Below, piece after piece: positions 1,967-7,455 of a stretch of DNA of 51,620 nt. The notes beneath the pieces were generated by a model. The model did no database searches and had not been told where the DNA came from. It was given only the letters and a program-made list of their open reading frames with translations. How positions within the stretch are numbered: the stretch's first letter is position 1; each line of letters opens with the position of its first letter. A program made the translations under genes and the position numbers. Source of the DNA: a virus; IMG/VR virus record IMGVR_UViG_3300006754_000027, positions 1 to 51,620 of that record. One strand, given 5' to 3'.

Positions 1967-2927
1967 CTTGAAGAGACCTATAGCCTTTCATTAAAACTTC
2001 TTTAGGAATTATAGAATTAGCTCCATCAACATAGTCTTCAATAATCATCTCATTAATAGAGAACAAGTTTCTCTCAGGCTCATAAGAGGAGACCTCCTCC
2101 TCATTAAACACGGGGTTATATTTAACATCAATATAAGGCACCCTCAACTTATCGTATGGAATAGGGTGATGGTCTACGTCCACAAGGATACGGAGCATGG
2201 TGAACCACTCTGGGTCATTAATATCCTCCAAGTTATCTTCAATATCCTTGGCAGCATATACTAAGTGACGAGGACCATGATGAAGAGTGCGTAATGTTAC
2301 TTTATTATCATCTTCTACAATAGCATAAAAACTATCCTTAAAAGCTTCTCCAAAATTTGTAGTGTATGGAGTGCCTAAAATTGTAACATTTTCTTTCTCC
2401 AAGTATCCATGAACATGACCCAGAAAAGTAGGAGTACGAAAATCAGACAACTTAATATTAAAATCAGCGTCCCCAACAGAGTTAAGGGAACCATAATAAC
2501 CGAAGTGACCGTATACTGTATACCCTTCAGGAATTTCTTTAAGCAATTTTTTAATATAATTCTCATCTTCATAGTGAGGAATCCAAGCCCTCCTCCACTG
2601 ATGGTCTACCTCATACTCGGTAATCACATCAGCATGGTAATTATATAGGCTAAGAGCAGTGATTCCATCATCAGCTTTAGTCTCACTATCATGGTTTCCT
2701 CTTAGAACAGTAAGAGGAATATCCTTTTTCTCTAAACAGTCTACAATATCTTTAAGAGCAAGAAGCACCCTAGGAGATGGCTTTCTATACATCATCAGAT
2801 CTCCCATGATGATAACCTCTTGTGGTCTCTCTTCTTGGATAATTCTAATGATACACTTTCTCTGTGCATCTAACAACCCTTTAGGCTTGTCAGTAAAATG
2901 AAGATCAGTTAATAAGAGAATTCGCAT
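1956..2927 (-). CDS. gp47: gp47-like recombination nuclease (SbcD/Mre11 family)
   Basis: Metal-dependent phosphoesterase partner of gp46. All calcineurin-type metal motifs are visible in order: TDLHF at the N-terminus (Asp and His), GDLMMYRK, RGNHDSE, VYGHFGYYG and FLGHVHGY. I chose ATG 2925-2927, giving MRILLLTDLHF, because the family starts right at this strand. A TTG 12 bases upstream in the same frame would add MGCL and is less likely. The start lies inside the end of thyX (19-base overlap) and the end overlaps gp46, so thyX-47-46 looks like one translationally coupled unit. Size (323 residues) matches T4 gp47 (339). Confidence 0.94.
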   Translation of the reverse strand: MRILLLTDLHFTDKPKGLLDAQRKCIIRIIQEERPQEVIIMGDLMMYRKPSPRVLLALKDIVDCLEKKDIPLTVLRGNHDSETKADDGITALSLYNYHADVITEYEVDHQWRRAWIPHYEDENYIKKLLKEIPEGYTVYGHFGYYGSLNSVGDADFNIKLSDFRTPTFLGHVHGYLEKENVTILGTPYTTNFGEAFKDSFYAIVEDDNKVTLRTLHHGPRHLVYAAKDIEDNLEDINDPEWFTMLRILVDVDHHPIPYDKLRVPYIDVKYNPVFNEEEVSSYEPERNLFSINEMIIEDYVDGANSIIPKEVLMKGYRSLQDED

Positions 2928-3592
2928 AAGGCAGCCCAACTTTCAGGAAAGAGTTCTTCCATAATCTCAGAGATTGCCAAGGCATACTCCTGTGTCTCTT
3001 TTTGAGTATGCCTTTCAGTTCTCATATTACACAGATGATACCAACCAAGGAGAGAACCTGTTACTACGGTAGTAGTAAACATAGATTGGGGAAGAAGTAT
3101 TCTAGCTTGTTCAGGACAAACACCTAGATCTAACATATTAATATAAGCATGGTAAGCAGAATCATAGATATTTTCTAACTCCTTATCTGCCTCAATCGCA
3201 TCATGATTAGGGAGAAGATCCTTAGAACTACCTTGCTTTACATCAGCGGAAGCTTCTCTCCACTCATCAGTAGAGGGGTGATAAAATACTGGGTCTGAGC
3301 TAACATACCTACGAGAAACCTCACTCCAAGAGAATCCTACCTGATGCTTACCTAGCTGACGCAGTACAAATATAGGCGCGACGATGCGTAAAGTACATAC
3401 AGGATGACGGAAAGGCAGTAAATGTCCATTCGCCGCCAGATAATTAATAAGTTTTGTATCAGTTTTGTGATCATAAAGTTCATGCTCCTTATCAAAAGAA
3501 CACCTAGCTGCATTTACAACCAGTAAATCTCCATTACAAGTACGGCTCATCAACTCTACCGAACCGTGATGTAGTATGTTTTCTATCTCCAT
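2909..3592 (-). CDS. thyX: Flavin-dependent thymidylate synthase ThyX
   Basis: Makes dTMP from dUMP using FAD, NADPH and methylene-tetrahydrofolate. The 227-residue length is normal for the family. The ThyX signature (classically RHRx7S) is present in the variant form KHQVGFSWSEVSRRY at residues 82-96, with the SRRY end intact and Lys/Gln replacing the two arginines. Other family-like stretches are LPFRHPVCTLRIVAPIFVLRQ (59-79) and, toward the C-terminus, EQARILLPQSMFT and MRTERHTQKETQ, the region that normally supplies the dUMP-binding Arg. It overlaps the polymerase gene by 10 bases and gp47 by 19. T4 itself uses the unrelated ThyA (gene td), so this is a non-T4-type metabolic gene in a T4-like phage. 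Confidence 0.93.
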   Translation of the reverse strand: MEIENILHHGSVELMSRTCNGDLLVVNAARCSFDKEHELYDHKTDTKLINYLAANGHLLPFRHPVCTLRIVAPIFVLRQLGKHQVGFSWSEVSRRYVSSDPVFYHPSTDEWREASADVKQGSSKDLLPNHDAIEADKELENIYDSAYHAYINMLDLGVCPEQARILLPQSMFTTTVVTGSLLGWYHLCNMRTERHTQKETQEYALAISEIMEELFPESWAALCEFSY

Positions 3593-4671
3593 AGGGGTTT
3601 TCCATCCTTAAATTCTACGGGTTGGCCGTCACCAAAAGAAGAGCCGACTTCAGCATCAATAGCTAACGGCACATCAAAATGAATATTAAAATTTTCCTTA
3701 ACAAAGGGGTAGTTTACAAGCTCATCATAGAGAATTTCTAGACATTTTTCAACATGATTAGCTTTACATACAACTTCTATACTATCGTGGACTGTAGCTA
3801 CTGGGTAAGCTTCCACAGCTTCCTCTCTAAGCCTCCTGTAAGCTCCTAGGAGCCCACATAAGAGGATATCTGATGCGGTGGACTGGATGGTGAAGTTAAG
3901 CCCTTGACGGAGCGCACGATTGACCACAGAGAAGTCCCTGGATTCTACGTTAGGGAGGTTTCGTCGTCTCCCAAAAATAGTATACGCATATTTATTAGAT
4001 TTAATATAATTATTCACGAAATCCATATACTCAAAGATTCCTGGGTACACGTTCTTATAATTAGAAATGATCTTCTTGGCTCTGGGGAGAGAAATACCTG
4101 TCGTCTCGGCTAAATTAAACGCTCCTCCCCCATATACAATAAGGAAAGAAACTGCTTTGGAAATTTGCCTCTCCTCTTTAGAGATTTTTTGCTTATTAAA
4201 TAGCATCCTAGCAGTATAAGTATGAAGATCCTCTCCATTATTAAATGCTGTTTGCATATTACCTTCCTTGGCAATATGAGCTAGAACTCTAAGCTCCATC
4301 GCTGCGTAGTCAATAGTAATAAACTTATACCCCTTAGGAGCTACAAACAAACTACGAATATTGTTCTTCGTTTCTCTGGGTAAGGTGTGGAACGAGACCC
4401 CCATAGCCTTTTGGGCTGAATACGCCGCACAAGACAACCTACCTGTAGCAGTACCATCAAACCTATAATCTACATAAACCTTCGGTCTCTCATTATACTT
4501 AATAGCGTTGGAGGTTCCTTTGATATAGGTCTTCTCCAGCTTTTGAGACTTGCGAAGCTCCAAAAGACCTTTGATAAAGTTTTGCGAATTTCTTAGGTCT
4601 TCGGTACTTTTCTCTTGGAGGAGGGCTTGGCTAATCCTTTTACCTTCGTCCCTATAATTCCACTTACCCAC
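3583..4671 (-). CDS. polA: Family A DNA polymerase, catalytic (palm/fingers) piece
   Basis: C-terminal catalytic part of a DNA polymerase I-type replicase on its own gene (362 residues). Visible: TATGRLS (74-80); motif A TIDYAAMELR with Asp121 and Glu126; the O-helix RQISKAVSFLIVYG with Arg168, Lys172, Phe176 and Tyr180 in exact family A spacing; a FGRRRNLP loop; NFTIQSTASDI; motif C VATVHDSIEV with Asp296. Motif C has Ser where the textbook motif has Glu (HDE). The thumb tip and exonuclease are not here but in the next two polymerase genes upstream. Start is GTG 4669-4671, which overlaps the upstream stop; AGAGGAA about a dozen bases upstream can serve as ribosome binding site. A +1 frameshift from the upstream gene is a possible alternative to re-initiation. 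Confidence 0.95.
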   Translation of the reverse strand: MGKWNYRDEGKRISQALLQEKSTEDLRNSQNFIKGLLELRKSQKLEKTYIKGTSNAIKYNERPKVYVDYRFDGTATGRLSCAAYSAQKAMGVSFHTLPRETKNNIRSLFVAPKGYKFITIDYAAMELRVLAHIAKEGNMQTAFNNGEDLHTYTARMLFNKQKISKEERQISKAVSFLIVYGGGAFNLAETTGISLPRAKKIISNYKNVYPGIFEYMDFVNNYIKSNKYAYTIFGRRRNLPNVESRDFSVVNRALRQGLNFTIQSTASDILLCGLLGAYRRLREEAVEAYPVATVHDSIEVVCKANHVEKCLEILYDELVNYPFVKENFNIHFDVPLAIDAEVGSSFGDGQPVEFKDGKPLWR

Positions 4672-5143
4672 GTTTTTCCAGTTCCTCTTCTATCTGTGCT
4701 AGTAATAGTTTTAAAGTGGGAGCAGATACGGATGGTGCCCCCTTCCCAGTCCTATCAGGAGGGTACATCTCAAACGCCCCCTCTCTGGTATATAATATCT
4801 CAATCAGATCGTTATTTGAAGACAGATTATCAGAAGTTTTTACCTCATCGAAAGAGTATAGGCTATCTTCTTCATTGATATTAGCATCTCTCAATTGTTT
4901 TCCCACAACTTTAAGTTGTTTCTCCGAAACATTCATGCCCTTGTACTCCATATCAACAAACATGGGGAGTGCTGGCATGATGAGATTTTCTAGAATCTTA
5001 TCCATCCCCATCTCTGATAGCTTCTCGCTAATGAGATCAAAGATTTTGAGGGTAAAATACGCATCAGCCGCATTCCCTTCCACGCAATCAGAAAGAGCCA
5101 TGTTAGCCCAATCAAAAGTCTTAGGATTATTAACTGTAAGCAT
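4664..5143 (-). CDS. Family A DNA polymerase, middle piece (Exo III motif and thumb)
   Basis: A 159-residue protein that aligns, by eye, to the middle of DNA polymerase I. Residues 20-33 (CVEGNAADAYFTLK) match the Exo III region, which supplies the last metal-binding Asp of the 3'-5' exonuclease. LIMPALPMFVDMEYKGMNVS is the usual link into the thumb, and RTGKGAPSVSAPTLKLL is the thumb motif just before the palm. The exonuclease motifs I and II are in the gene at 5419-6441 and the catalytic centre in 3583-4671, so this piece cannot work alone. ATG follows the stop of the membrane-protein gene directly (TAA ATG) and lacks a clear Shine-Dalgarno, suggesting coupling. Confidence 0.88.
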   Translation of the reverse strand: MLTVNNPKTFDWANMALSDCVEGNAADAYFTLKIFDLISEKLSEMGMDKILENLIMPALPMFVDMEYKGMNVSEKQLKVVGKQLRDANINEEDSLYSFDEVKTSDNLSSNNDLIEILYTREGAFEMYPPDRTGKGAPSVSAPTLKLLLAQIEEELEKRG

Positions 5144-5419
5144 TTAGTTAACCACATTCCTTAACAGTAGTAACATACTTGTTGATCCGACTACCATAGC
5201 ACAAGCGCAACAGAATGTAATTTTTAAACGCACTAGAGTCTCCTTGCAGTCGATGAAATACTTAATACTTAAGAAGTTAATGAAGGGGAGAGAGAATCCT
5301 AAAAACATCTGAGCTACGATGTATTCATGTGCGATCAAATAACCATAGCAGGAAGCAACAAAGTCTCCCAGAACGGTTAAGAGAAAGACAGTTAGGTATT
5401 TCTTGGGCGTCATTTCCAT
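5144..5419 (-). CDS. Small membrane protein inserted between polymerase pieces
   Basis: A 91-residue hydrophobic protein with three likely transmembrane segments: about 8-28, 32-54 and 64-86. A short charged loop (CKETLVRLK) precedes the third. No family recognised with confidence; no signal peptide cleavage motif or enzyme motif. Its position is the striking point: its start overlaps the stop of the UDG/exonuclease gene (TAATG) and its stop abuts the ATG of the polymerase middle piece, so it sits between Exo II and Exo III of one ancestral exonuclease domain. It may be an inserted passenger gene or could anchor the replisome to the membrane. That role is inference only. A holin is possible by size, but it is not near lysis genes. 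Confidence 0.75.
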   Translation of the reverse strand: MEMTPKKYLTVFLLTVLGDFVASCYGYLIAHEYIVAQMFLGFSLPFINFLSIKYFIDCKETLVRLKITFCCACAMVVGSTSMLLLLRNVVN

Positions 5420-6441
5420 TACAGATTCTCCAACTCATCAGAAAAGTATAGTTTTACGAGGTCCATCAATCCTTTCGGTGCGTTCTCATTAATAAAATGG
5501 TGCATCACCTTTGTATCCCACGCATTACAAACCTCAATTCCATAGTTTAAAAGAAACTTAAGATCAAACTTAGCGTTGTGAAATACTTTCTTATTGTTAG
5601 GGTTATTTAACATCTTCCTGAGAAGTACCCACACCTTAGCGTAATGTGGTTGTCCTTTGCGGAAGGGGCTATCCTTATGGTCCAGAGGAATTACCCAGTT
5701 AGTATCCTTAGAAGAGAAAGCAATCGTCTGAATACTATCCGTAAGGAAATTCAGCCCAGTCGTCTCAATATCAATAGCTACTGTGTCGTCAGTAGTTGAT
5801 AAGAGGTCAGCTAATTCTTCTACCTCTTCTATCTCCCCCACCAACTTATAGGCGAAATTTCCTTGGCTTTCTTTGCCGAGGATGTATTTTTCGTAGGCAT
5901 TTCGTATGTCCGTTTCAAATAGATATCTATGACTCGGTTCTTTAAGAACAGAATAAGGGTGATAGATAGGTACAACAACGCAAGAATGCCCACTATCTGT
6001 AGTGTATTCATAAGAAGAACCTCTCTTGTTCATAATGCCACTCTTTTTAACCAACATCTTCATGGCTAAATTACCACAAGCATAGATTAGGCGCGGCGTT
6101 ACTTTATCTACTGTGGCTTCCAAGTGTTTCCTACATGAATTCATATTATTAGGAGACATATCTCCCTCTTTAACAGAGGGGCATTTAATAGAGGCAGTAT
6201 ACTGCACCCTAGCTGGGTATAAACTTTCCAATAACTTCTTCTCTTTGTTAGAGAAAGGGTTCATAGATCCGTACTTATATTTGAACGAGTCTGCGACGAA
6301 AAGAACATCTCCCTGAGATAACTTCTCATAATCCATGAAAGAATACTCTGGTTTATTCTGAGATAAAACCGTACATCCTTCGCATAAATCATTACTACAA
6401 GTAGGTTTAAGACCAGAGTAAAGGTTTTCAAGCTCTTTCAT
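5419..6441 (-). CDS. UDG family 4-like domain fused to 3'-5' exonuclease (polymerase N-terminal piece)
   Basis: 340 residues, two domains. The first (about 10-190) resembles Fe-S uracil-DNA glycosylases: cysteines C20-x2-C23 and C87-x15-C103 fit the 4Fe-4S ligand spacing, with TPRLIYACGNLAMKML (115-130) and IYHPYSVLKEP (159-169) in the family order. The usual GEAPG catalytic loop is replaced by VADSFKYKYG, so glycosylase activity is doubtful. The second (about 205-340) is a DnaQ/Pol I-type proofreading exonuclease with Exo I IDIETTG (Asp224, Glu226) and Exo II HNAKFD (Asp293). It stops right after LVKLYFSDEL, before Exo III, which is on the gene at 4664-5143. The start ATG lies 4 bases after a CTATAATAG box, so the mRNA may be leaderless. 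Confidence 0.88.
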   Translation of the reverse strand: MKELENLYSGLKPTCSNDLCEGCTVLSQNKPEYSFMDYEKLSQGDVLFVADSFKYKYGSMNPFSNKEKKLLESLYPARVQYTASIKCPSVKEGDMSPNNMNSCRKHLEATVDKVTPRLIYACGNLAMKMLVKKSGIMNKRGSSYEYTTDSGHSCVVVPIYHPYSVLKEPSHRYLFETDIRNAYEKYILGKESQGNFAYKLVGEIEEVEELADLLSTTDDTVAIDIETTGLNFLTDSIQTIAFSSKDTNWVIPLDHKDSPFRKGQPHYAKVWVLLRKMLNNPNNKKVFHNAKFDLKFLLNYGIEVCNAWDTKVMHHFINENAPKGLMDLVKLYFSDELENL

Positions 6442-6445
6442 AACG

Positions 6446-6454
6446 CTATTATAG
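6446..6454. promoter_or_regulatory. Near-palindromic bidirectional promoter box CTATTATAG
   Basis: In the 16-base gap between the divergent exonuclease (minus) and sigma (plus) genes. It reads CTATTATAG on plus and CTATAATAG on minus, so each strand has a -10-like box. No TTGACA-like -35 is visible 17 bases upstream on the minus side. On the T4 late-promoter geometry the minus start site would fall on the ATG at 6439-6441 and the plus start around 6460. The same box recurs at 7467-7475. Promoter function is inferred. Confidence 0.6.
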
Positions 6455-6457
6455 GGT

Positions 6458-6814
6458 ATGGGTAAGAAGATGCATTACATTAACAATAAAAGATTTGAAG
6501 AAATCATACCATTGTACTTACAAAATCCAAGTGAGTACGAGGATGAGTTAATGGCCCTATTTGATCTCTTGATAACTAACATCATAGAAAGTTTTAAATT
6601 TAAAATTGATAAAGACGATGCGAAACAAGAATGTTTTTTACTAATACTTAAGACTCTTAAGAACTTCAAACCTTCCAAGGGAAGTGCGTTTAATTATTTT
6701 ACAACAGTAATAGTAAATAATCTAAAGCTACTGTACACTAAAAATAAAAAGTACCAAAAGAAGCTGGAAGAGTATCAAGACCGTCTAGGAGATTCTAGAC
6801 CTAAACTTCGATAG
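6458..6814 (+). CDS. gp55: gp55-like late sigma factor (sigma-70 region 2 only)
   Basis: 118 residues with a helical sigma region 2: a family-like start LMALFDLLITNIIESF, then DDAKQECFLLILKTLKNF and GSAFNYFTTVIVNNLKLLYTKNKKY, which match regions 2.1 to 2.4 (core RNA polymerase binding and -10 recognition). There is no region 3 or 4, as in T4 gp55, which recognises only a -10-type late promoter (TATAAATA). One of only two plus-strand genes in the window. Two in-frame starts are possible, ATG 6458 and ATG 6470 (M5). If the box at 6446-6454 is its promoter, the later start fits the transcript better. Its 3' end overlaps a convergent gene by 40 bases. Confidence 0.8.
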   Translation: MGKKMHYINNKRFEEIIPLYLQNPSEYEDELMALFDLLITNIIESFKFKIDKDDAKQECFLLILKTLKNFKPSKGSAFNYFTTVIVNNLKLLYTKNKKYQKKLEEYQDRLGDSRPKLR

Positions 6815-7101: not shown

Positions 7102-7455
7102 TTATTCAACTACTTCTACAGAACCTTCGGCAATCTCTTCATCAACACCTGTTAGATTCCCTTCCTCATCGAAGGTAAACCCAGAAGCCTCATAGTCAGA
7201 CCTATTCTCTTCCATGTGCTTTACGAGGTTGCTCGTAATACTCTCTTCTATAGAGCGTATCCCTGCGAAAAAGATAGACCGCACGAAGTCGTTCATCTGA
7301 ACATTGTCAGGCTTCACACTATTAGCAAAGTTAGTAAAAGCCGCAGCTTCTTCTTGATTTAATTTTACTTGAAATTTCATTCTTCTTCTACTCCGTTCAA
7401 AGGTTTTAATCTTCCACTCATCGGGGTGGAATTCAAATTTGAGATCTTGGGTCAT
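7102..7455 (-). CDS. Small acidic-tailed protein, possible ribbon-helix-helix regulator
   Basis: 117 residues. Residues 26-70 (MKFQVKLNQEEAAAFTNF ... NDFVRSIFFAGIRSIEESI) have the strand-helix-helix rhythm of ribbon-helix-helix DNA-binding proteins. The rest is an acidic tail ending in EEIAEGSVEVVE. Start ATG 7453-7455, about 6 bases after the expected transcript start from the box at 7467-7475. Located beside the gp55-like sigma, so a role in late transcription (as gp33 or another sigma partner) is conceivable, but no sequence match to gp33 is claimed. Function unknown. Confidence 0.7.
   Translation of the reverse strand: MTQDLKFEFHPDEWKIKTFERSRRRMKFQVKLNQEEAAAFTNFANSVKPDNVQMNDFVRSIFFAGIRSIEESITSNLVKHMEENRSDYEASGFTFDEEGNLTGVDEEIAEGSVEVVE

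Follow-up and report, generated by a model that had tools for sequence, protein, structure and literature searches.

How can a virus copy its genome when the genes for its DNA polymerase appear broken in three, with a membrane-protein gene lodged inside the exonuclease? The question is raised by IMG/VR virus record IMGVR_UViG_3300006754_000027, of which positions 1 to 51,620 were analyzed (here called the window, a 51.6-kb fragment of a viral genome; all window coordinates refer to its full length). Four open reading frames (ORFs) lie on its minus strand at 5419-6441 (340 amino acids, aa), 5144-5419 (91 aa), 4664-5143 (159 aa), and 3583-4671 (362 aa). An original prediction, made from the letters alone, had read these as a family A polymerase in three genes interrupted by a membrane protein, and its coordinates proved exact. 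Here, we report that the three genes very probably (we estimate 0.85) specify a functional replicative polymerase of the SPO1/Herelleviridae domain type, made as separate polypeptides that associate.

The domains were confirmed with Pfam and with profiles of orthologues. The product of 5419-6441 (piece 1, exoN) matched the uracil-DNA glycosylase (UDG) superfamily (E 1.1e-7) and DNA_pol_A_exo1 (E 4.8e-19), and that of 3583-4671 (piece 3, pol; GTG start) matched DNA_pol_A (PF00476, E 9.4e-76); no Pfam family reached a meaningful E-value for the products of 4664-5143 (piece 2, thumb) or 5144-5419. Against the Klenow fragment (chain position n taken as Escherichia coli residue n+323), the orthologue profiles tiled in order, with piece 1 at chain positions 7-136 (approximately residues 330-459), piece 2 at 160-293 (E 6.7e-10; approximately residues 483-616), and piece 3 at 301-585 (approximately residues 624-908). 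Because its profile matches Klenow between the parts taken by the other two, piece 2 is identified as the end of the exonuclease domain plus the thumb. Junction 1 thus falls at about residues 460-482, within the exonuclease domain between Exo II and Exo III, and junction 2 at about residues 617-623, near the thumb/palm border. The three pieces also matched the SPO1-type family phrog_17 in order, at 482-785, 805-926 (a weak match, E 0.017), and 932-1238.

The AlphaFold2 model of piece 1 (predicted local distance difference test, 85) matched both UDG and Pol I with Foldseek. Its N-terminal UDG-like domain, overlooked in the original prediction, had its best structural and profile matches among family-4 UDGs (PDB 4zbx, E 1.7e-13), and cysteines C20, C23, C87, and C103 were invariant among relatives, as expected of the iron-sulfur family-4-like UDG fold. 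Piece 2 modeled alone gave a predicted template modeling score of 0.32, weak evidence that would be consistent with a part needing its partners; its best Foldseek matches were to Pol I but at E > 0.09, and were not used to prove identity.

Residue invariance was judged in alignments of 18 to 20 relatives. In piece 1, Exo I D224/E226 and Exo II D293 were invariant, as were Exo III D27 (equivalent to D501) in piece 2 and motif A D121, O-helix R168-K172-F176-Y180 (motif B), and motif C D296 in piece 3. The alignments and Klenow profiles therefore bear out the assignment of Exo I and II to the first gene, Exo III and thumb to the next piece, and palm and fingers to the last. Equivalents of all four exonuclease ligands (D355, E357, D424, and D501) are present, and the proofreading chemistry has probably been kept. 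The claim that all metal and O-helix residues were intact holds for those residues but does not extend to every motif position: the tyrosine of the DEDD(Y) site (Y497 in E. coli) is Gly, and the motif C glutamate (E883) is Ser in all aligned relatives, as it also is in the Herelleviridae enzyme. By its palm/fingers motifs and Klenow register, the trio is a family A DNA polymerase whose activity is predicted.

A split of this kind in one contig could be an assembly error, and relatives were searched for the same junctions. IMG/VR searches returned 105 distinct relatives, 84 of them with all three pieces, and in 83 of these 84 loci the pieces were encoded by separate ORFs, divided at the same two places as in the window, which contradicts misassembly. 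Among clean contigs, the pol piece was approximately 60 to 96% identical to that of the window. One error-ridden contig with many frameshifts (L018) showed an exoN-thumb fusion and was set aside; another (L091/L137), with a broken thumb piece and further frameshifts, was likewise not relied on. With L018 set aside, none of the 84 three-piece loci held an intact single-gene polymerase or an exoN-thumb fusion. No unsplit close relative was found, and searches for more distant ones with two further alignments, each limited to the best 80 of 228 matches, returned the same group, all split. One other record (L002) carried an identical copy of the locus, membrane gene included.

The pieces are evolving as parts of a working enzyme would. 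The closest relative of the window (L003) is 93 to 96% identical in the three pieces, and nonsynonymous/synonymous divergence (dN/dS) between the two was 0.039/0.474, 0.019/0.478, and 0.023/0.502; every piece is under purifying selection. Distances of the three pieces correlated among relatives (r, 0.76 to 0.84). A second, intact polymerase, which the original prediction had named as evidence against itself, was sought in seven relatives (40.7 to 130.6 kb, including records of 130,604 and 129,906 bp); they had one match to PF00476 and none to PF00136 (family B) or PF07733 (family C). A decaying polymerase, its role taken over by that of the host or by another viral one, would explain the fragmentation and the replaced Exo III tyrosine and motif C glutamate, yet it is extremely improbable given the invariant metal ligands and O-helix, the strong selection, junctions identical over a large group, and the finding of no further polymerase from families A, B, and C in the long relatives. 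Since the same junctions recur in more than 80 loci, selection is purifying, and no other polymerase of these families was found, the locus is neither an assembly error nor a dead gene, and assembly of the polymerase from pieces, as suggested in the original prediction, is supported as probable.

Some points weigh against this reading, in which the association of the pieces is inferred. The polymerase search covered families A, B, and C and not others such as PrimPol, and the window's own virus may yet encode a second polymerase, since the 51.6 kb are only part of its genome and its relatives come without a completeness estimate. The loci are related, so that their counts are not independent events. 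Finally, the Gly at the Exo III tyrosine position occurs in all aligned relatives, and proofreading may be weak or altered because of it.

We propose that the ancestor was probably an SPO1-type polymerase with an N-terminal UDG-like domain, and that its division into three genes would predate the last common ancestor of the group and have persisted since. The three polypeptides would associate noncovalently into one enzyme. Because junction 1 divides Exo II from Exo III, the exonuclease site with its four acidic metal ligands would be complete only once piece 1 meets piece 2; because junction 2 lies close to the thumb/palm border, leaving the thumb apart from the palm and fingers, piece 2 would have to dock on piece 3, and the grip on DNA would also require assembly. 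Pieces 2 and 3 are kept as overlapping genes, which suggests that they must be made together, whereas piece 1 can be parted from them by intervening genes, some of these on the opposite strand.

The junctions themselves bear on whether the pieces are instead joined into one protein. At junction 2, the end of piece 2 and the start of piece 3 overlap by 8 nt in the window (4664-4671, minus strand; GTGGGTAA), and overlaps in relatives were 8, 17, 23, 29, or 32 nt in one frame relation or 4 nt (ATGA, in 18 loci) in another. Joining of pieces 2 and 3, or of all three, by programmed frameshifting or splicing would fit the +1 relative frame that most loci share at junction 2, and one relative (L106, 6276-7118), the sole exception to the split, does encode thumb and pol in one ORF through a small indel at this junction, in a contig that ends inside pol. 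There is, however, no conserved slippery site (GGG, GAG, GTC, GGC, or AAA precedes the TAA), and a programmed +1 frameshift was rejected in view of the inconstant codon, the several overlap lengths, the two frames, and the one locus (L096, 8135-8719) in which a 585-bp gene separates pieces 2 and 3. The joined ORF of L106 suggests that split and joined forms of junction 2 are equivalent.

Splicing fares no better at junction 1. The stop codon of exoN and the start codon of thumb share a single nucleotide (TAATG) in 45 of 86 loci, with GGAG in the exoN end and no sequence between the two genes that could be spliced; GGAGAAyCTnTAATG is conserved in these relatives without a junction-1 insert. Ten loci with inserts at junction 1 gave no Rfam match to an intron or other RNA element, no intein was found (the pieces tile without extra residues), none of the junction-1 inserts read was a homing endonuclease, and some loci have opposite-strand genes at this position. 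Joining is accordingly judged very unlikely, and the overlaps are most simply read as coupled reinitiation, by which separate pieces 2 and 3 are probably translated. In the window, the Shine-Dalgarno-like GGAG lies within the 3' end of exoN, 8 nt ahead of the ATG of the next gene (5417-5431, minus strand; GGAGAATCTGTAATG).

That next gene is the 91-aa membrane-protein gene (5144-5419), whose start codon overlaps the exoN stop. Its product has three hydrophobic stretches and its position in the gap between Exo II and Exo III is exact, both as originally described; no Pfam or PHROG family and no match among named phages was found for it. A role as fourth subunit, or as an anchor tethering the polymerase to the membrane, was suggested by its place within the split exonuclease and its coupled translation, and where present it is under purifying selection (dN/dS 0.019/0.362, window versus L039). 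It is, however, present in only 8 of 86 loci and missing from approximately 90% of relatives, L003 among them. In a tree of the concatenated pieces, carriers stood in at least four places (the window; L039; L107; and L103/L105), with sisters lacking the gene that include L003 and L109; L090 is a further carrier. Between the window and L039 the gene is 92.4% identical in DNA, versus 66 to 72% for the neighboring pieces, which points to horizontal movement. A homologue (73% identical) lies between tRNA-Ile and tRNA-Arg genes of a 73-kb viral contig (L194, 2998-3270) with no polymerase piece nearby, a case of a small mobile membrane gene settling in tight intergenic gaps.

Elsewhere, junction 1 hosts genes unrelated to this one, namely a lipoprotein-like gene on the opposite strand, a glycosyltransferase, a 2OG-Fe(II) oxygenase (as in L096), and small ORFs without assigned function. 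Being rare, scattered in the tree, more alike than its flanks, matched at a tRNA site, and replaced by unrelated genes elsewhere, the 91-aa gene is best read as a horizontally moving, optional passenger in a tolerant junction 1, with no needed role in the polymerase. The tie to the membrane is thus not supported and is most improbable. In L090, the exoN tail is repeated (GAGTTGGAGAGTCTTTAG, 7244-7265) directly after the membrane gene and ahead of a lipoprotein-like ORF, as though insertion had duplicated the exoN end.

Two further features of junction-1 inserts were observed. In several relatives (L043, L049, L091, L094, and L097), the inserts are opposite-strand genes starting MNDKDYELIGESIWDTYRxMAYxLxE or similar, and that of L042 has a start of similar kind (MNFYDRVYTLLLE); these N termini resemble capsid-targeting peptides of phage internal proteins, and the products may be packaged in the virion. 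Other loci with opposite-strand inserts (L061, L058, L088, L089, and others) carry a TATATAG motif only a few bases ahead of the thumb ATG and no clear Shine-Dalgarno sequence, possibly a divergent promoter with a leaderless start for pieces 2 and 3.

The two junctions differ in how often they are interrupted. Genes were inserted at junction 1 in 41 of 86 loci, at junction 2 in 1 of 87, and at the pol-thyX junction in 14 of 38; these counts are not independent owing to relatedness, yet the contrast between junctions 1 and 2 is large. It favors a regulatory split, in which pieces 2 and 3 would be the replicative polymerase and piece 1 a separable proofreading subunit made at its own level, and so do the frequent opposite-strand inserts and the TATATAG motif, which could be a promoter for pieces 2 and 3. 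Piece 1 is, however, found in all complete loci and is about as conserved as piece 2, and both the promoters and the stoichiometry are hypothetical. We consider this unlikely, although it is a special form of the three-polypeptide explanation and compatible with it. Tentatively, pieces 2 and 3 would then form a basal polymerase held stoichiometric by gene overlap, and piece 1 would be detachable, on its own transcript in some lineages, with proofreading switched on only upon assembly.

Beyond the polymerase, thyX (2909-3592, minus strand; Pfam Thy1, E 2e-42), encoding flavin-dependent thymidylate synthase, is next in the cluster and shares 10 nt with the pol piece. On the other side, a divergent 118-aa protein resembling sigma-70 region 2 (6458-6814; Pfam E 7.4e-5, just below cut-off) adjoins the polymerase in nearly all relatives and is possibly a late sigma factor. 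A CTATAATAG motif (6441-6458) separates exoN from this divergent sigma-like gene, a few bases from both starts, and similar motifs stand directly ahead of the window ORFs starting at 7455 and 10975.

The group is large and uncultured and consists of mostly marine tailed phages (myoviruses), in which the split polymerase is the only DNA polymerase of families A, B, and C found; no named isolate reached 60% identity among 50,697 phage records. The sole cellular record with a relative, a contig bearing the split polymerase (L184, QCKN01000003.1, 130604 bp), comes from the Prochlorococcus single-cell genome AG-409-P03. The group may therefore infect Prochlorococcus, and this one virus makes an ecologically important host possible; a co-sorted virus is the alternative source of the contig, and the cyanophage signature family psbA was absent from the seven records tested. 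If the proposed assembly is correct, a replicative family A polymerase would consist of three polypeptides throughout a group, with an exonuclease active site shared by two of them. This would open direct tests of how much cutting a Klenow-like enzyme tolerates before it no longer self-assembles, of proofreading as a separable subunit, and of the way in which breaks in genes are fixed when no intron or intein is involved. In phages of this kind, annotation pipelines will report the genes as partial or unknown.

Among known systems, the nearest in domain order (UDG-like, exonuclease, thumb, palm/fingers) is the SPO1/Herelleviridae polymerase (phrog_17). That of Lysinibacillus phage LysYB1 (891 aa) is tiled in order by the three pieces (45-308, 355-445, and 529-853) and shares the VHDS motif C, but is a single gene, is approximately 30% identical, and keeps the Exo III tyrosine (YAAAD). 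Rhodothermus phage RM378, named in the original prediction, is said to have its exonuclease on a gene apart from the polymerase; papers mentioning RM378 did not confirm the arrangement. In a literature search, which left out most subscription papers, no family A polymerase divided over three genes came to light. Within that search the claim of novelty holds for the three-way split, but it must be relaxed for a gene set inside a split polymerase, as the family A polymerase of OM43 phages MEP401 and MEP402 (Zobellviridae) is divided over two ORFs with a 77-aa ORF between them (PMC10580990). Like our group, these are marine phages with PolA on separate ORFs and a small unrelated ORF that fills the gap exactly, an arrangement also present in most related metagenomic genomes; they differ in having two pieces, in belonging to a different phage family, and in a break at motif A, which marks an independent event. 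Their 77-aa ORF is not hydrophobic, and no UDG-like domain was seen in the first ORF. In T4-like Aeromonas phages 25 and 44RR, the polymerase is likewise on separate genes, as gp43A and gp43B, which are reported to copurify (PMC2988022), but it is of family B, in two pieces, with a break tied to a seg homing endonuclease or an untranslated spacer. Split phage polymerases in two pieces were thus already known, and the three-gene family A arrangement is a new form of them.

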